A stretch of 64,000 bases of DNA from Sistotremastrum niveocremeum HHB9708 (taxonomy: Eukaryota; Basidiomycota; Agaricomycetes; Sistotremastrales; Sistotremastraceae): positions 433,387 to 497,386 of the forward strand of contig KV419403.1 of the NCBI GenBank assembly GCA_001630475.1. The letters run 5' to 3'. Below are positions 40,869 through 51,912 of this stretch, in pieces. Below the pieces are notes generated by a model. That model saw only the letters and a program-made list of their open reading frames with translations. It did no database searches and had not been told where the DNA came from. The position numbers and the translations under genes are program-made. Within the stretch, counting starts at the first letter, position 1. Every line of letters starts with the position of its first letter.

Positions 40869-40875
40869 TGTAAAG
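40869..40875. repeat. Left target-site duplication (TGTAAAG)
   Basis: The 7 bp directly outside the left inverted repeat are TGTAAAG, identical to those outside the right one at 51906-51912. Confidence 0.85.
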
Positions 40876-40900
40876 CCCAGTCAGAAGTGTCGCTATGCGG
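40876..40900 (+). repeat. Left terminal inverted repeat
   Basis: Starts CCCAGTCAGAAGTGTCGC and matches the reverse complement of 51881-51905 at 24 of 25 positions. Confidence 0.88.
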
Positions 40901-41346
40901 AAAAATTCAGCACTATTCGGCTACAGGACGATAGGTTTCAATAGCGTTGAATTTAAAATGCGTCTGGTGAATAGTTGTTCTGATATTCAGACCTATTCAA
41001 ATAAATCGTCGTCTATCAAAATAACTTCCAATAGTTCTGAATTGATGGGTGCGACCAAAGTCCATGTCAATAAATCGAGATATGATTGAATAGACTGGGA
41101 TATTCACACATTGAGGGGGCCAGCTCATCCACGGACAAAAATCACTATTGTGAAGACAAATGCACCATTTCTCGTGGTGCGAACAGTTTCCGATAGACAC
41201 AGATGAAAGAATAAGACCAATATATACAAAATAATGTAATTAGAGGGGGCAGTCGAGGCGAAATCGAAAATAAGAGGGAAAGAGCCAATTCGGCGAGCCA
41301 AACGAGTGACAGCAAACAAGAGCGGAATGCACGAATGAGAAGATTT
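40901..41346. other. Left subterminal region of the transposon
   Basis: Non-coding. It has many short related words such as GAATAG, CAATAG, GATATTCAG and ATTCGGCT, several repeated in the right subterminal region; these are candidate transposase-binding sites. The 3' flank of the coiled-coil gene also lies here. Confidence 0.55.
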
Positions 41347-43955
41347 CTAAGACAACTGGGGGGCATCCGACGGTGACGCGATGACCTTTTCCTTGGTTTT
41401 CGCGAGCTTCTTTGCTTCCATAGACAAATTGTGCCAGTACTATAACATTGAAAGAGGACATTAGCAAGCACTGATAAAATGCATATCAAGGACGCACCTT
41501 CTCTTTCCCATCAATCTTTTTCTCTGCAGCCCAGAGAGAGTTGAATTCAGATTTTGTTAACGTTTCCGTCCAGATCGATCGTTTGAACGATTCCCTAATA
41601 AATGATTAATCGGTGGTGTATGGCACAACGGAGATGCAACTTACTTCCCAGAAAAAACGTCCAATAGTGTTTCATATTTACTGTTATTCTTCCGTTTGGG
41701 TGACGAGGGGGGGGCGACATTGGCAGCGATTGGCGGGGGAGCTTGCGAGATGGGTGGGGCGGGCGAAACATGCGCATCGGGGGCGCTGGAAGCAGAATCT
41801 CCCGTTGCATCAGATGACGCAGCTCCATGATCTTCTTGCGCGTTTGCGGTAACCACAGGACTCTGGGAGTTTTGCGTACCTTTCGACGGAGCAGCGATTG
41901 GCTCTGCAATAACTGGCCTTGACGCGTTCGGAAGAAATTGTATATCATGGCTGTGTTGATTTGATTAGCTATGGAGGAGAAGTAGTCTCAAAAGAATGTT
42001 GTCGCCTTACCGAGAGTCACTATACTGTGGTACAACCATTTCTTTGGGGGGATTTCCGGCTGCCAAAGAAGATTCTTGCGCTCCGCTATCACGCACCGGC
42101 TCCGGACGAAGAGCGGGGATGTCGTTTGCATTCTCATCTAAACGATTGAGCGCGCGGGGGGCATCATTGGCATTGCGCTCATCAACGTTGGACATGCTGT
42201 GACAGACCTCCGCTTCTGGCGTAGGGATACGAGGTACGGCAGGGGCATAGAGGGAGTCGGAGGTAGGAGCTGGAGAGATCTCCGGAGAGGGGACTGCTTG
42301 AACAGGAGCACAAGGGGGAGCTGCCGGGAGCGCTGGGGTACCAACACGAAGGGGGGAAGGTTGTTCCGCAGACGCGTTGCGTTGGCGAGTTGGATCAGTA
42401 TGAGAGGGCGGAAGAGTATTCGAAGAAGATGCGGATTGTCCGCTGCCGTTTTCAGACGCATCGGAACGGCGCTTTTTGGGAGGACCGTCCGGCACCGGCG
42501 TGCCTGTGGAAAGCTTTCGGGCACGTTTCGAATGGACGGGGACAGGGAGGGAAAGATCGACCAACTGAAGTGAGGCATCCATGAGTACGTCTGCAACCTC
42601 CTGCTTCGGCTCGATCTTCGTCAGCTTCTCCGCAGCTCTCTTTGCAGTGTTTCGACGCGATTGCTTCCAGCTGTTGAAAGTGTCTGATCCGTGTTTGATC
42701 ACCTTCCAGCGGTTGTTGCAGTAGCGTAACTCTTCGTGGAAGGTCTCCATGCCGTCACAATACATCTCGGCAGCAGCGGGAGGGAAATTCGAGAAGGAGG
42801 TGAGGACGAATTTGCAGGATAGGGAATCAAAGATCTCGCGAGCAGTGTTGTTCATGTTACCGACTTGCTTTCCGCTGACGGGATTGCCTTTGGCATCGAC
42901 AATCCACGGCTTAGAATTGACCGTCCCGCGCTGCCAAGTCTTCTCCCTTTTCTTCTTCTTTCCTTTGGTGCGCGAATCTGTAGCCGCGTCGGCATCGCTC
43001 TCGCTGTCGACGTCGATTCGCACGACATCCTCCGGCCTCATATCGGGTGCCACCACAATGGCCGTATTCCCGTCATCCTCCACTTTTTGCTCACCACCCT
43101 CCATACCCATCCAGTTTTGGACCAGGGGATAGTCCTTCCATCGGAGGCGAGGTTGCTTGACGTACTTCGAGAAATGCATTTCAGCGGCTGCGGCTTCCGC
43201 TTCTGATACACCTTCGATGACAACATCTTTCATTTGTCGTGATCGCTCCAAAACTTGGACCTGCCCTCGCAGCTCCGTCACTTCGGTTTGGAGGCCAGTC
43301 AAATGCGTGCTGACGGATTTCATTTCCGAGACGAGATAATTGATCCCGCGCAGAATTTCGGAGCTGTGAAGGGGTCGTAAATCAGCGTACACCACGAGTA
43401 GAGAAGATAAAATACGTACATATCACCTTGGTGATCACTTCCAAAGCTGTCACTCTCGCCCTGGCTCGAGTAGCCCCGGGTCAGCGAGCGCCTAGAAGAC
43501 ATGGGGGAGTCTGGAGTACTCGAGAGCGACTCTCGTGGACTGCTATACGACGATACGGAGGAATGAGGTTGAAGACGGGGATGAGGGGATGCTGTACGGC
43601 GTAACAACTTGTTGCCTTCATTGAGACCCAAAGACTGCACCGTTCGTGGGTGCAGGAAACCCAGATTCCGATTGCCAGGATTGTCGAGGTTGTCGAGGGA
43701 CACGGCGCGGTTCATGACTACGCGCTGGGAAGGCGGATTTCCGGCTTGCGGACCTTGTGGTGAGATCTGGTTATGCTGGATTTGCTGGAGATGGGATCCC
43801 AATGAGTTAAAGATTGAATTTTGCTGCGAATGCGAGCCTGCATTCGCCGAAAATTGGGGGAAGGAGGCAATGAATTGCTGAAGACTGCCCTCCTGGGGTT
43901 CCAGATCTACTTCATCCGCTTCAAACATGGCTCCAGAGGGAGCGAAGCCTTCCAT
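41347..43955 (-). CDS. Large transposon-encoded coiled-coil protein of unknown function
   Basis: A minus-strand gene of at least five exons, opposite to the other three transposon genes. The start MEGFAPSGAMFEADEVDLEP leads to a Gln/Ser-rich region and a Ser/Arg-rich stretch. An intron is followed by a coiled coil (LVSEMKSVSTHLTGLQTEVT, then ELRGQVQVLERS). A likely folded, basic segment follows: KYVKQPRLRWKDYPLVQNWM, KPWIVDAKGNPVSGKQVGNM and REIFDSLSCKFVLTSFSNFP, then NRWKVIKHGSDTFNSWKQSR. Then comes a long Pro/Ser/Ala-rich linker. The last exons read SIWTETLTKSEFNSLWAAEK and end VIASPSDAPQLS. No known domain is recognised. Aromatic and basic residues in the middle could bind DNA, which would fit a transposon accessory factor, but this is inference. 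It looks whole. Confidence 0.75.
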
Positions 43956-44581
43956 TGGAAGAGACCTTCTTCTGTCTCGCAGACACAGCGCAGGTTGCTT
44001 GCGACGGTGAGGTGATGGTGCTGTGTGGGCGGAGTTGGAATTTTCGCTTCCGATTTACCACCAAGTGCGTGTAGCGAATGTCAACTTAATGTTTGTTCTG
44101 TTCTGGCGACTCCCCACGTCCTGATAGAAATGGACTGAGTTCCGAGTCAGCTTGTAAATTTATTTATTCTCGATGGACCACAGGATAAGGAGATAATTCG
44201 AACCACGTCCCCCGACAATATTCGATTTATCTGTGATACCAAGCAACGCCGACTCCAAAGTACATTCTGTACAAGACTGTCAATCACACAAAGCAGAAAT
44301 ACTGTAACACAGAAGCCGCGTGTCGTATATTTTAGTTCATTATGTTCTTCGCTAGCTGACTCACGAACTGCATGCCGTTGCAGCATACATTACCTGATCT
44401 ACCTCTTATACATTGAATGAAAGATGCGTTAGAAAGTGCTGGTAAGCATACCATCAAGGTGTGTCCTCTAGAGACACAGTGCGCGCATTAGAAGCATTTT
44501 TTCTAGGCTGATTGTGGTCCGACCCTACTCACCCGAGGATCGGATGCCACTAAGACATCAACATAAAAGGGAATAGCAGAT
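43956..44581. promoter_or_regulatory. Internal divergent promoter region of the transposon
   Basis: About 0.6 kb between the start codons of the coiled-coil gene and the transposase. No gene is seen; both promoters should lie here. Confidence 0.5.
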
Positions 44582-47500
44582 ATGTCGAAAGCCCAGACCT
44601 TACCGAAAATGCCTTCTCATATGACCACACAGAATTCTCCACAGAATCCTTCCGCAGACGACCGTGTCTGGTGCGAATGCGATGTCTGCACCAAACGCGG
44701 GAAACTTGGTGCGTTTTTGACCAAGGCTGTCGCTGAAAAGCACGCAAGGGCTACTGCCCGAAAGAGGGTTCAGGACTTCGTCTCAGAACGACTCGAAGGC
44801 GTACGCGATCTCGTCATTACTCGGAAACTGCATGTGCACGATTAGCTGACCAAACCTACTAGCATGATTTTGCTCAGAATGTACGATACTCACCTTATGG
44901 GACTGCGGGTGCATCTTCGCAGAAACCAGACGCCAACTACGCACGTGGACGGGGAAACGAACCTTGAGCAACTCGTCCGCCCCCTCCGCCCCCTCCGCCC
45001 CCTTCGCCACCTCCGCCACCGTCACCGCTCCTGGTAAATGAAAGCATGGAGGCCAGCCATATCACTCTCCTGGACTATTCATACATGGATGTTGACGAGG
45101 TCAGCCTATTTTACGATCCTGTTTTGCGAACCAAGCTTCTAAGAATACTGACCATCTCCTTCAGGATGAAGAGGACTCCCAGCGGGCAACTGACGATATC
45201 GTCGGCCAGTTTTTCTCTGATGATCAGGGAACAGGATTAAATCAGTTTGATGATTCCGAGTCTTGGGACCCGCCCAGGGCCGAACAGAGCAGCATACCAG
45301 GTGCTACTGGGTCCAGTTCTCCGTCAACCAGTCAACTCCCAACATCTTCCACATCGCCTCCTCCACCTTCGCCGCAGAATCCCGTCACAAATCAAGTACC
45401 ACTTCATTCTCAGCAGAGACCTGCAGCCACCGTAGAGGACGACGACGAAGAGGAGGAGGAGGCAGACGACGACGAAGAGGACGAGAACGTGAACCAGACC
45501 CCAGAGCGTCTAGCCGAACAGTCTGCCACCCGAAGAGCGATGCATGGATCCCCTGTGGACAGAGATCGGGGTAATCCTACATTTACCCCGATAATGCCGG
45601 ACGTCCGTCGAGCCCGGGAGAATATCGAGCTCCTGCAATCAGCCAGCCTTACGAGCGACGTCGAGCCACTCAATAAGCAGCTCATTCACCTTCTCAAGAA
45701 TCCACCGACAAACCCGCGTGTTCTCACCCCTGATGAGATGCTAGCCATGCGATTGTTCATGTCGTCCTTGGGGGCATCGGAACAGAATTACAACTCGAAT
45801 CGTGCGGCCTGTCTTGCACGCCATCCGGAGGACGATATCCTCAGCTTCGATCAGGCCAAAAGAAAGTTAGCAACTATGACCGGCGTCAAGCCAATTGTCC
45901 GGGATATGTGTATCAATTCCTGTGTCGGATTCGCAGGAGCTCTGAGAAATGCGACCGCTTGCCCTATCTGTACCGAAGGTCGATATGTTCCGGGCACTGA
46001 GAACTCAGAAAAACCTCGACCGAGACGTACCTTCGATACATTCCCCGTTGGTCCCCAGTTTCAGGCCCTTTGGGGATCCCCAGAAGAGGCAAAGCGCATG
46101 TCGTACTTGGCCGAGGCAACGAAGAAAGTCCAGGCATCCGCTGCCGCTGACAAAGAACGACACAGAACGCGCACCCGTCCTTACAGCGACTTTTGTGACG
46201 GGAAGGAATGGATTGACGCTGTGGAGAAGAAGTATGTCGACCCAGCCCATGATGTCGTCGTCATGATGTCTCTCGATGGCGCTAAGCTATATCGGGATAA
46301 AGACTCAGATTGCTGGATGTATATATGGGTAGTGATGAATCGCGATCCCAAGATACGATACAAAGTACGATACGTTCTTCCAGGTGGGTTCAATTCCATT
46401 TCCAAGCGGTGCAGTTATTCATACTCTCCCAGGTGCTGTCATTCCAGGTCCTGAAAAGCCCAAGGACCTCGACAGCTTCCTCTTCCCCGGTCTTTATCAC
46501 CTCGCCGCTCTTCAGAGAGAAGGTTTCCAAGTTTGGGATGCTTCCAAAAATGAAGAGTTTACATCAAATCCGTTCCTGACGATGGAGTGCGGTGATGGTC
46601 CCGGACTCGCCTGCCTGAGTGGCACGGTCGGACATACAGGCAAAGTCCAGTGTCGGGTGTTCTGTCCATTCAAAGGAAGACGAAAAGAGGGACTGGGTCA
46701 CTACTACGCTGTGATGCTGAAACCCGATTACAGGGGGCCAGTGCCTGGGAGTGATTTTGAGGATTCTAACATAAGACAAGCGATGCTCGACTTTACGACG
46801 GAGGAGAGCAAGAGCCGTTACGAAGCCAACGTTGTCAGGATCTGTCAAGCAAAAACTCAGGCCCAATTTCGAAAGGAACGCTTAGAGACAGGTCTGTGTA
46901 AACCTTGCATTCTGACTGGAATGCCGGAGAATCACAGATTCTGCATTCCCCGCTGCTTCCCTCTCGATATCATGCACCTACCCTGTCTCAACTTCCCCGA
47001 TCTCTTTGTCGCACTCTGGAAGGGTCAAAAAGGCAGCATTGCCTGCGAACGCCCCGACCGCTATGAAGACTGGCCGTGGATATGTTTCAAAGGGGACGCA
47101 TGGACAGCTCATGGGTTGACAGTCGAAGCGGCGAAAGAATACCTCCCTGGTTCTTTCGATCGCACCCCGAGAAATCCCGTCCTTAAATTGAACAGCGGAT
47201 ACAAAGCCTGGGAATATCTCATTTGGTTCTTCGGGATGGGGCCTTGCCTCTTCTACAGGCTGCTTCTCGAACCATACTGGAGTCACTATTGCCTGGCTGT
47301 TCGTGCATTTCGTCTTTGTATGCAGGAGTCCATAACGCCCCAAGAAGTGACCGAAGCGATCCAGTGTATGACAAAGTTTGTGGAAGATTTTGAACACATC
47401 TACTCCCAACAGAAGGTCGAGCGCATACATTTTTGTAGGCCATTCCTCCATACGTCAGCCCATGTTCCATGGGAGATCCCCGCACTTGGACCTCTGATGA

Positions 47501-48338
47501 TGTATGCTCAATGGACGATGGAACGCACCATTGGAAATTTGGGACGCGAGATACGTCAGCATTCCAACGCTTTTGCAAATTTGTCGCAGAGAGCCCTCCT
47601 TCGTTGTCAGGTTAATGCCCTGAAAGCACTTATTCCGGACCTCGATCCGTTGGAGGCCAAACTACCGAAGGGTGGAAAAAGATTACAAGATGGCTATGCT
47701 CTTCTTCCAAAGCGTGCCAAGAAATCGACTTTTGCTAACCATGCTGAGCTTACCGCGATCAACGAATACGCGATGTTGCAGGGTTCTATTTATCGGTGGA
47801 CTTCGTTCAGGATCCGGAAATGGGCGAGGCTTGCATTGCCTTCAGGACAGGTTGCTCGATCGATCTGGAAAGAAGTTGACCTGCGAACGGAGAAATCAAA
47901 ACAATATCGTCGATCCAGAAACGTTAAGGTACGTGGAATCAATGAATGACTATATCCGCTTTCGCTAAGCTCAGCAACCAGTACGTCGAAGATGGTTTCA
48001 TGAAACTCGCGGAAGTCAAGTACTACTTCGAATTGACTTGGCCCAGAGAACAAGAACCGGTTGTCCTCGCAATGGTCTCCACTTACGGACCTCGAGACGA
48101 GCAACTATATTCCGAATCTTGGAAAACCTACGACAGCAGAATTCTTTTCCAAAACCATCGTATTATCGAAGCAAATTCAATACAGTCCGTGGTCGCAATG
48201 ATACCAGATACTCAATACAGTGAAGGTGGGGTTGCCTCGAACCGGTGGTTTCTGGTTGAAAAACCTGGGTTGAAAATGGGAGTGATGACAGGCGTTACAG
48301 AGGATCTTCGTGGAGATAGGGATGATCAAGCAGACTGA
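44582..48338 (+). CDS. Plavaka/TNP2-type transposase
   Basis: The likely transposase of the element. Exon 1 carries a Cys-rich N-terminal motif (WCECDVCTKRGKLGAFLTKA, then EKHARATARKR), typical for this group. A Pro-rich tract and an acidic region follow. The core shows MMSLDGAKLYRDKDSDCWMY (first catalytic Asp region), YVLPGAVIPGPEKPKDLDSF, which is created by removal of a 49-nt intron, LFPGLYHLAALQREGFQVWD, MECGDGPGLACLSGTVGHTG, CRVFCPFKGRRKEG and RCFPLDIMHLPCLNFPDL (TNP2-like DIMH). C-terminal exons read VKYYFELTWPRE, then LAMVSTYGPRDEQL and NRWFLVEKPGLKMGV. These blocks recur in many Agaricomycete Plavaka transposases. After splicing I see no stop, so it looks functional. A second ATG lies at 44618. 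Confidence 0.88.
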
Positions 48339-48518
48339 ACAATTCCGAATTCTGATATTTATTCATGTATTGATAACTTGATATGAATTCTTATTGATCT
48401 TATTCCAAGCATACGTCGACGTCTATATATGCTGTTCAGCTATTTTCTCCAGCCACCGTTTTTTGCATGCGTCATTTGCTTATCAAGCAACTTCACCCTC
48501 GCAGCGGCCTCACTTCAC

Positions 48519-50424
48519 ATGCTTCACATTCCGCCGTTCTCAAACACCAACAACTCTGCCAGCGACAATGACAATCATTGTCTTGAGACGATGTTCGAAG
48601 CGATGTTATACTGCTTCCACCGAAATTCCGAATTAACGTCATACGGCTCGCTTAGAGACTGCCTGCGTCAAACTCTATACACTTTCCTCCGGCCACGACC
48701 ACGCCAGCAAGCTTTACTCTCTCAACAGCCTTTGCATCGAATCGCCTGAAACATGGGTCTGTTGCACAACTCGAGAATTAGAAGATTCCCCTGACCTGTG
48801 AACATTGCCTAGGATTGGATTCGGAAGTAACAATCACTCAGACTAGTGCCCTTCAGAGCACTGGTACTATTCGAGCTGTTGCCAAACAGTGCAATGAGAA
48901 AACGCCTGGAAAGGATTCGACAGAAGGAGGGCTATCACATACCTCACAGGACGACACCATCCTGCTCGCCGTATCATTTTATCAATATACCTCCCCGTGC
49001 GTGGATGCATTCTCGGCCATCAAATAACTTCACTCAAACATGACAGGAGGATTCAAGACATTGGAACTGGGCATCATGCGCCTGAAGTCGCAGACAGAGA
49101 CTTCCACGAACCTCCCAGTCTCAATACACTAGTGACTCGTTCGGGTTTGTCGGCTAATGCATACGCCATAGCAAGGCTGCCCAGGTTGGACTTATGCTCT
49201 ATATTGGAACTCCATTGACGGAGTGTATTTTAGTGAATTGCGTTCAAAGATAGAAGCCTCTTTTGTCATGTTCCTAGTCAGCGATGGGACGGTTCCCGGA
49301 AGTCCCCGTCGCCCCCTATTTGAAGCCCTTCGTGCCATCGTACAAACAGTAAGTCGCTCAAGCCTAGACGGAATCATAATGATGGATCTCTGGCAGCTCC
49401 GAGCGGATAATGAAGCCATGAAGATCTTGAATCCGTCGGAGGTTCCGGATATCGCCGCCTGGGACGCCGTGCTGCAGTCTCCACAGTCTCGTGTCGACGG
49501 TTCAGCAAGGAGCTATGCTCACGGTATTGTGTCCTGGGTGGCCCGTAATCGAAGTGTGAGTTGCTAAAAAACTCAATGTGGGCTCATTCCTGAACACAAC
49601 ACAGGTGGTGGACCAATTCCTGGACATTCGCTCTAGCGACTACGGGAACCGGTCGTGGGACGAGATCGAGGCGATTCGATTCTTGTTCCAAGTAAGGTCG
49701 TCTCCGGACATGGGGGTATGGCTTGACTGACTTCCATTGTCCAGATGGCCCGTTATGTGATAGCTATGTGCCTCGCCCGACCCCAGGATATCGGCGACTC
49801 TATTGAGGCAATTGAAAAACTGATCATGTTGTGCAAGCTCAAAGTCCTCGAGCTGCCTAATGACTCTTCCGTCCGACTCATGTGCCGTCACCTCATGCAA
49901 TGGCCGCAAGCTCTTTCGTGGCCAGAAGCGGCTTGGATCGCAACCTGTGAGTTACATCACGAGTTGTCCAGCTGTATACTTATTTATCTTTCCAGACGTC
50001 TCTACTAATATTCCTCATTCCCTCAAATGTAGGGCCTTGAATGAACGGTGGAACAATGAGGGACGCGAACAAGCATCAGAGTATTTGCGCGCGGTGGTGA
50101 GCCGGACGCACCCTCTGAATGCGCAGCGACTAACGACACCCCAGGGCACCTCCGCGTACCATAAACTCTACAAGGATCGCGACGACAGCCACCTCGACCC
50201 GTTCGAAAGCTTCAGCCGTGAAGTGAATGAATTTTCGATTTTCATGCGGGACTATTCATATCCGCGTCCGATTGAGTTCTGGGAAGTGGGTGATCTCATC
50301 TCTTCTCGTCAGCTTCTTCATTTATTTTGATAAGGAATTCAAGGGAGCCGCCCTCTTCCCCATAATGCAGCAATTTGCGAAATATTTTATAGATCCACTA
50401 ATTGCAGACCCCCACGCATCCTGA
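48519..50424 (+). CDS. Uncharacterised multi-exon transposon gene
   Basis: Several short exons must be joined; the 5' end is uncertain. A plausible path is an exon near 48640-48790 (ACVKLYTLSSGHDHASKLYS, then LCIESPETWVCCTTRELEDS), LDSEVTITQTSALQSTGTIR, then GTGHHAPEVADRDFHEPPSL. The well-supported core is WTYALYWNSIDGVYFSELRS, SFVMFLVSDGTVPGSPRRPL, DQFLDIRSSDYGNRSWDEIE and RYVIAMCLARPQDIGDSIEA, then LNERWNNEGREQASEYLRAV. The last exon ends KYFIDPLIADPHAS. It is helix-rich and without signal peptide or known motif. The FWE...LFPIMQQFAKYF ending weakly recalls the C-terminal dimer region of hAT transposases, but the similarity is too faint to use. The function is unknown. Confidence 0.55.
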
Positions 50425-50900
50425 TGACAAGGTCGAAAGCAGCAGCGCGATCTCACGTGTCTGTGAGGTCGAAACCTGCTTTCTAATTACGATATTACCT
50501 TCCTGCAATGTCCACCTCTATGCCTGCACCTATCCTGGACCATACATGTTTCAATTTGATTTGTGTGTCTTTCCATCTGCGTGATTAAAGAAGTCCATAT
50601 CTTCAAGTTCGATCAACCATTTTTTCAACATTCACAGATCTCTCTAGAAGCTCAACATGTTATTCAATAGAAATCTGCAAAAAAGCGAATAAAGGCAAAG
50701 GAACAGACACAGGTACGCTGACATATTGCACACATCACAAGGCATTCTATTCACTGACAGAACTCTTCCTACATTCCGAGGCCATTGATCAGACTGAGCC
50801 CGACGGTCGAACCAACACGCCCCGAAGCACCGTTTGCGCGCGACACACGATCTCCGACAGCACGCTCACCGTCTCCCGACCACTTCACTCACCTCAAAAT
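50425..50900. promoter_or_regulatory. Spacer before the Zn2Cys6 gene
   Basis: About 0.48 kb within the transposon without a gene. It should hold the terminator of the preceding gene and the promoter of the Zn2Cys6 gene. Confidence 0.45.
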
Positions 50901-51526
50901 ATGGAATTCGCAGCTGTGGACATCGATAACGTTGACGGTGTTCCCCCTACAAAGAAAAAGGCCCGATTAGCATGTCAAGGATGCCGCAGTAAGTCCATAT
51001 ACATCGACTAGAAAATATGATTACTGACGTTCTATTAGAAGCTAAGACGCGATGCGACGAACATCATCCTTGTGGGAGGTGCTGGAAGAATAGGTTGATC
51101 TGTGAATATGACGCTTTGTACGTGGACCTCCCAAGTTTCTTCATCTTTCATTTTACTCTTCCTCTTGTTCTCTACTCTCAGTATAAAACGTCGTGGCCCC
51201 GCGAAACAACCCCGCGAGAACAAGCGTAAGCTGTTCGCGAAAGGTTTGATATCTTATCTGATTTGTATGTGGTACGAAACTAATATGAATCAGGTAACAC
51301 AAATGACCCATCCAACGTCGTCATCTCTCCCACCCCCGACGTTTTCAATGCCGTAGCGGAGCCAAGAGCTCGCTCAGAGTCTCCAAAGATCCCTTCTCTG
51401 CCTATCGAGGCCAACAAACTTCCTCCCATACGATTCCATCGCCTACAGGAAGAGGCAGGATTCAAATCCCTTCCCTCATTTGCACAGTTGATGGAGGAAT
51501 TGAAAGCCTCGTCTCAACCTAAATAA
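50901..51526 (+). CDS. Small Zn2Cys6 DNA-binding protein carried by the transposon
   Basis: The start MEFAAVDIDNVDGVPPTKKK leads into a binuclear zinc cluster, ARLACQGCRKAKTRCDEHHP followed by CGRCWKNRLICEY. The spacing is C-x2-C-x6-C-x5-C-x2-C-x6-C, the standard fungal Gal4-type pattern. An intron falls inside the cluster after CQGCR, and another follows CEYDA. The rest is a basic linker (IKRRGPAKQPRENK) and a Ser/Pro-rich tail that ends AQLMEELKASSQPK. At about 150 residues it lacks the fungal transcription-factor middle domain, so it is a bare DNA-binding protein. It may bind the element's own ends or promoters, or host promoters. The cluster is certain; the role is inference. Confidence 0.85.
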
Positions 51527-51880
51527 TCCAGATAATGTATACAGTGTTATCCATCTTATTTGACCGTTCAATTCAAACAAAGCAAGATATATAATGGGGG
51601 TCGTTGAAATCTTATTCGTATTCGTACTGAGACGGTGAGCGCGCGAAAACGGCCAAGTCATTCGGCGGCAACGCCCGAACATACCAATAAATGAAAGAAA
51701 ATACAGCAAGATATTTGGATAAATAAACGAAAATACAGCAGGATATTCAGCTCGAAGGCCGTTAAAATGAACATGAGGCGAATTTTGTGTCGAGAGTCCG
51801 GTGAATAGTTTATTGGCACCGAACATAGTTTCAAATACTTCGCTTGCTAGCCGAATATATCTGAGTTGTCCCGGATTGAA
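51527..51880. other. Right subterminal region of the transposon
   Basis: Non-coding. It repeats words seen at the left end, for example GGTGAATAGTT, GATATTCAG and AGCCGAATA, plus a near-tandem AAAATACAGCA(A/G)GATATT pair at 51698-51745. Candidate transposase-binding sites. Confidence 0.55.
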
Positions 51881-51905
51881 CCGGATAGCGACACTTCTGA
51901 CTGGG
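51881..51905 (-). repeat. Right terminal inverted repeat
   Basis: Reverse complement reads CCCAGTCAGAAGTGTCGC and pairs with the left end. Confidence 0.88.
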
Positions 51906-51912
51906 TGTAAAG
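51906..51912. repeat. Right target-site duplication (TGTAAAG)
   Basis: Identical to the 7 bp at 40869-40875. Confidence 0.85.

Follow-up and report, generated by a model that had tools for sequence, protein, structure and literature searches.

The 64-kb window analysed here (the whole stretch of 64,000 nucleotides from Sistotremastrum niveocremeum HHB9708, C10:433387-497386) contains at positions 40876-51905 a unit of 11,030 bp with four gene models between its ends. Judged from its sequence, this unit is very probably a complete cut-and-paste DNA transposon of a lineage allied to CACTA/EnSpm, with CCCAGT ends and 7-bp target duplications. The left terminal inverted repeat, CCCAGTCAGAAGTGTCGCTATGCGG (40876-40900, + strand), is paired with the right one (51881-51905, - strand), whose reverse complement, CCCAGTCAGAAGTGTCGCTATCCGG, is identical to it at 24 of 25 positions; both were recovered in the end-pattern search described below. 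Exact copies of TGTAAAG adjoin the unit on the left (40869-40875) and on the right (51906-51912), and this repeat cannot be extended on either side, even by one base, thus its length is exactly 7 bp. By our own arithmetic, an inverted pair of 25-mers with at most one mismatch together with an adjoining exact 7-mer is expected by chance about 1e-8 times per 64 kb. The borders given in a preliminary description of this DNA, which had reported inverted repeats of about 25 bp with one mismatch around 11,030 bp and a perfect TGTAAAG duplication, were therefore confirmed.

The ends were searched in the 34.7-Mb assembly (111 contigs), which was used for all genome searches. A pattern of 18 letters spread over the 25 end positions, with up to two mismatches allowed, occurs at six places, all of them element ends: two belong to the window unit, two to a copy on contig C34, one to a partial copy on C64 and one is the left end of a second element, and the backwards control gave no match. 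This pattern missed the right end of the second element, which is more diverged and was found separately. When a 20-mer of the end was searched with up to three mismatches, eight places were obtained (two in the backwards control). Five of these are ends of the window unit, C64 or C34, and the 3-kb loci around the other three (on C49, C1 and C8) contain no element sequence. A solitary end-like sequence with two mismatches lies at C49:88948-88967, with no other element sequence across the surrounding 9.9 kb. The 216 bp to the left of the unit have no match in the assembly besides themselves. The genome search of the ends indicated that the repeats are not scattered independently through the genome, and the earlier view of the unit as a single transposon was upheld: the ends are specific, other copies with the same ends hold subsets of the genes, and the second element shares the end type and the duplication length.

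This second element (C10:279687-293135, 13,449 bp) is bounded by ends like those of the window unit, CCCAGTGAGAATGCCCACTATCCGG and CCCAGTGAGAACACCCAATAGTCGG, which match each other at 20 of 25 positions, and it is flanked by an exact duplication, TTTAAAC, also of 7 bp. Inverted ends with a flanking target duplication, as expected of cut-and-paste DNA transposons, are thus present in both elements. The transposase of the second element (C10:289073-291115) is 59% identical over 657 amino acids to that of the window unit and has stops further on. Gene 1, for which a homologue was detected in the second element (expectation value, E, 1.5e-31; 36% identity over about 315 amino acids), is the only gene besides the transposase that was found in both complete elements, and these two genes look like the core of the element. 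They lie on the same strand in the second element and on opposite strands in the window unit. Repeat-like inserts were also seen in the second element.

Relics of the same kind of element are present elsewhere. At C57:376-3110 (82-84% identity to the window unit) there remain the final exon of the transposase and a gene 3 that is broken, and C64:99013-100180 (78% identity) has kept the right end together with gene 4, which is open. Since these two pieces abut at window positions 50717/50729, they probably represent one copy, which was split by another insertion at the contig ends. Short repeats, 84-87% identical, are shared between the second element and the insertion next to the C64 copy (C64:100181-102457). 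The copy at C34:339243-342525 has both ends (93% identity to the window unit over 59 bp) and broken genes 3 and 4 (about 66%), and no similarity to the transposase or to gene 1 was detected in it. It was considered as a working non-autonomous type keeping genes 3 and 4 and was rejected as such, since its gene 3 is interrupted by an early stop and altered in length, and its gene 4 is missing the end. At C42:208454-208496 a stretch of 43 bp matches a section of the transposase gene with 88% identity. Outside this stretch and the ends none of the other copies is more than 84% identical, the value of the closest long match.

The transposase gene (44582-48338, + strand) was modelled with exons at 44582-44833, 45165-46383, 46433-47928 and 47982-48338 and with an uncertain exon 2 reaching up to 45099. 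Its product matches PF02992 (Transposase_21, tnp2; E 1.4e-12), and no other family was matched even at a cut-off of 10. Three candidate catalytic residues, Asp371 in SLDGA (codon 46275-46277), Asp461 in GDGPG (46594-46596) and Glu770 in MERTIGNLG (47521-47523), all encoded on the + strand, are invariant in an alignment of three transposases; for the two aspartates the second element is represented by its row in a profile of four transposases. A histidine pair, H(3)H, between the second Asp and the Glu is likewise invariant in the three-row alignment. Together with the PF02992 match these columns predict a DDE-type transposase between the ends, as a cut-and-paste element would need. The four-transposase profile was built from the window unit, the second element and two further relatives (C59:54567-57375 and C8:225479-228228), which are about 41-43% identical, have long open frames and match PF02992, the C8 protein also matching DUF4218 below the cut-off. 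About 700 bp away from the C59 transposase there is a CCCAGTCAAAA sequence, which was tried as one of a pair of ends and was rejected, no partner being found up to C59:61900. For the C8 relative, inspection of its 5.3-kb locus revealed no ends. When viral contigs and bacterial and archaeal genomes were searched with the alignment of three transposases, 45 and 12 pattern matches were obtained, respectively, and none of them was confirmed.

The preliminary description had assigned the unit to the Plavaka type, and this assignment has to be given up. That a fungal DNA transposon has a multi-intron transposase would suit a Plavaka element, and the transposases of Plavaka and EnSpm are reported to be recognisably similar in PMC12730594. 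However, the Plavaka domain PF18759 matches 38 other stretches of this genome, 37 of them above the cut-off, and none overlaps the window transposase. The comparison of profiles was also negative: against a profile built from three of the Plavaka stretches just mentioned the four-transposase profile gave a probability of 0.3% (E 0.17), and against one canonical CACTA transposase of the same genome, which also matches PF02992, a probability of 100% (E 1.4e-42). Nor do the ends and the duplication fit, PMC12730594 giving TGT..ACA ends with 2-bp duplications for PlavakaA and CATCA..TGATG ends with 2-3 bp for PlavakaB. With these elements the window unit shares its fungal host and, by the placement in PMC12730594, the same broad clade, and we consider it extremely improbable that it is one of them. 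The PF18759 stretches of this genome are numerous and many are without stops (e.g. C19:378598-379620).

In the tnp2/Transposase_21 domain the window unit agrees with CACTA/EnSpm elements such as CNIRT6 of Cryptococcus, and likewise in the D, D, E residues and the histidine pair before the Glu. It differs from them in its ends, CCCAGT..ACTGGG instead of CAC..GTG, in a duplication of 7 bp instead of 3 bp (PMC12810828 and PMC12730594; the EnSpm ends and 3-bp duplications are from the latter, Kojima 2025) and perhaps in its cysteine pair, C(3)C. The unit might nevertheless be an ordinary CACTA/EnSpm element with a 3-bp duplication, the 7-bp identity of its flanks being accidental. The tnp2-type transposase would agree with this, and so would the C34 copy, in which no duplication is recognisable. 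In opposition to it, two separate elements have exact duplications stopping at exactly 7 bp, their ends are not of the CAC..GTG type, and the true CACTA ends of this genome are associated with 3-4 bp. The last point was obtained from a control, in which canonical CACTA ends (CACTG/CTCTG) gave 27 genome matches with up to three mismatches and none in the control search. Flanks were taken from eight copies, and all six readable ones had duplications of 3-4 bp (3 bp in four copies, 4 bp in two). Because the two transposase-bearing copies were unreadable at contig ends, this control rests on short copies of about 1.6-1.7 kb, whose ends are the same as those of the long ones. Accidental identity of the flanks is thus very improbable. 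Examples of these canonical elements are C29:439290-444878, C60:133431-139019 and C2:53197-54879; three copies situated close to contig ends, on C6, C29 and C60, share 4,310 bp without a difference.

The CMCT clade (CACTA, Mirage, Chapaev, Transib, Plavaka, ESTA and Lanisha) is described as having C(2)C and H(3-4)H motifs between the second Asp and the Glu, and PMC12730594 gives duplications of 2-5 bp and, in most cases, CA..TG ends for the clade as a whole; neither the window unit nor the second element has such ends or such a duplication. For fungal CMC elements PMC12810828 reports 3-bp (CNIRT6) and 2-bp (CNEST) duplications. ESTA/CNEST resemble the window unit in having fungal EnSpm-like transposases and differ in their 2-bp TA duplication and in CNEST ends beginning with CACGG. 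Duplications of 7 bp are recorded for Kyakuja and hAT7 in PMC12730594, but by their descriptions these belong to other transposase families (KDZ and hAT, respectively), and Kyakuja has CA..TG ends without inverted repeats.

Several observations weigh against the reading of the unit as a complete transposon of a lineage with 7-bp duplications. The C34 copy is flanked by GAGTACT and CACATGT, that is, without a duplication, therefore the 7-bp length rests on two of the three end-bounded copies. The same four genes, expected to recur between such ends, were found only piecewise in the other copies, and no other single locus has all of them; in the second element neither gene 3 nor gene 4 was detected. 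The cysteine pair is C(3)C in the three-row alignment and in the protein of the second element, which departs from the spacing of the clade if CRxxC is the equivalent of its C(2)C. For gene 4, the comparison of the window unit with C64 gave identities of 0.786 in the exons, 0.799 in the introns and 0.838 in the 3' flank, thus the exons are no better conserved overall. A reservation of another kind concerns the gene models: the simple splice at the transposase N-terminus (intron 44834-44922) leaves an in-frame TGA before a proline-rich stretch.

The last point concerns the claim that the unit carries four genes including a transposase with open spliced frames. Four gene models are indeed present and the transposase exons from 45165 on (45165-46383, 46433-47928 and 47982-48338) are open; it is the N-terminus that is doubtful, since an open frame there requires the splicing of a weak intron. 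For exon 1 (44582-44833) the second element offers a weak homologue (39% identity over 49 amino acids, E 8.5e-4). The splice which, judged by eye, fits the protein of the second element best also meets a TGA before the proline run. The element may thus be dead or dying, its transposase being null through the in-frame TGA in the N-terminal linker, and the ceiling of 84% identity among the other long copies would agree with this. On the other hand, GT..AG choices that avoid the TGA exist (two solutions with one intron and 46 with two), the acceptors being weak in the solutions listed (39 of the 46 with two introns), and the three later exons are open. We regard the death of the element as a serious possibility, though a somewhat improbable one. 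In any case, the suggestion that the element is recent and possibly still mobile gains no support from the analysis, in view of the missing close copies and the doubtful N-terminus. The exact duplication is no proof of recency either, because the second element, the transposase of which contains stops, has one too.

Gene 1 (41347-43955, - strand) was modelled with 794 amino acids and four introns. No Pfam family was matched at its cut-off, and comparison of the main exon with solved structures gave matches at chance level (best E 0.21). Gene 3 (49268-50424, + strand; at least 302 amino acids in six exons) likewise matched no known family, and its matches with solved structures were at chance level (best E 0.26). 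Its true start is probably further 5', upstream of 49268, because an ATG at the modelled start is missing from the C34 copy and the similarity extends upstream. A 129-amino-acid stretch of the second element was considered as a gene 3 homologue and rejected as unsupported (E 0.23). Gene 4 (50901-51526, + strand) encodes 153 amino acids in four exons with a Zn2Cys6 cluster (PF00172, E 7e-10). An Rfam scan of the window gave no match.

In the genome search genes 3 and 4 were detected solely in the window unit, C57, C64 and C34. This restriction, and their absence from what was found in the second element, would be expected if the element consisted of the transposase and gene 1, genes 3 and 4 being captured host genes of one sub-family, passengers and not working parts. 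The broken state of gene 3 in C57 and C34, and of gene 4 in C34, points in the same direction. In order to estimate the constraint on both genes, ratios of nonsynonymous to synonymous substitution rates (dN/dS) were calculated by the Nei-Gojobori method with 500 bootstraps, codons with gaps or stops being removed. For gene 3 the ratio was 0.32 against C34 (bootstrap range 0.22-0.45), 0.33 in its first four exons (0.18-0.50) and 0.37 against C57 (0.24-0.56); for gene 4 it was 0.47 against C64 (0.30-0.77) and 0.34-0.43 in the first two exons of three pairs (upper limits 0.75-0.93). Values below 1 in all seven comparisons speak against mere passengers. So do the open gene 4 of C64, in which all four exon lengths are kept, and the position of this gene, which is next to the right end in C64 and C34, the two other copies that keep this end. 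A passenger role of genes 3 and 4 is possible, but we hold it to be rather improbable.

If the unit is a complete transposon of the proposed kind, its transposase would cut at the CCCAGT ends and link them to the two target strands with a spacing of 7 bp. How long a target duplication is depends on how far apart the two points of strand transfer lie. In plant CACTA elements the second gene, TnpA, codes for an end-binding protein, and by analogy the gene 1 product may help to bind or pair the ends. The Zn2Cys6 protein of gene 4 would be coded by the element itself, bind CGG-type sites near the ends and regulate the element, and gene 3 may be accessory. TTCGG/TCCGG occurs seven times near the right end of the window unit (1.1 expected) and eight times near the left end of the second element (1.9 expected), and TATTC six times near the left end of the window unit (0.9 expected). 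These sub-terminal motifs were picked after inspection, four patterns being counted in seven segments with many values near expectation, thus the enrichment is a post hoc hint.

A broader proposal is put forward tentatively, as we judge it slightly less probable than its opposite. It holds that these elements form a lineage of superfamily level within or beside CMCT, which is characterized by CCCAGT..ACTGGG ends, staggered integration over 7 bp (TGTAAAG, TTTAAAC), the C(3)C pair and a conserved second gene, and that one of its sub-families added a Zn2Cys6 regulator acting on TTCGG/TCCGG near the ends. Literature searches for 7-bp CACTA/EnSpm elements in fungi, basidiomycete CMC/tnp2 elements and Zn2Cys6 genes associated with DNA transposons, made at the level of titles and abstracts and without subscription papers or Repbase, gave no description of such an element among the matches listed.

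For the clade to which CACTA, Transib and RAG1 belong, PMC12730594 gives duplications of 2-5 bp. An allied transposase joining its ends 7 bp apart, if the proposal is true, would make the rule that sets this spacing testable, and the duplication length could then not be deduced from the transposase family. A transposon that codes for its own Zn2Cys6 protein would be a simple test case for self-regulation.

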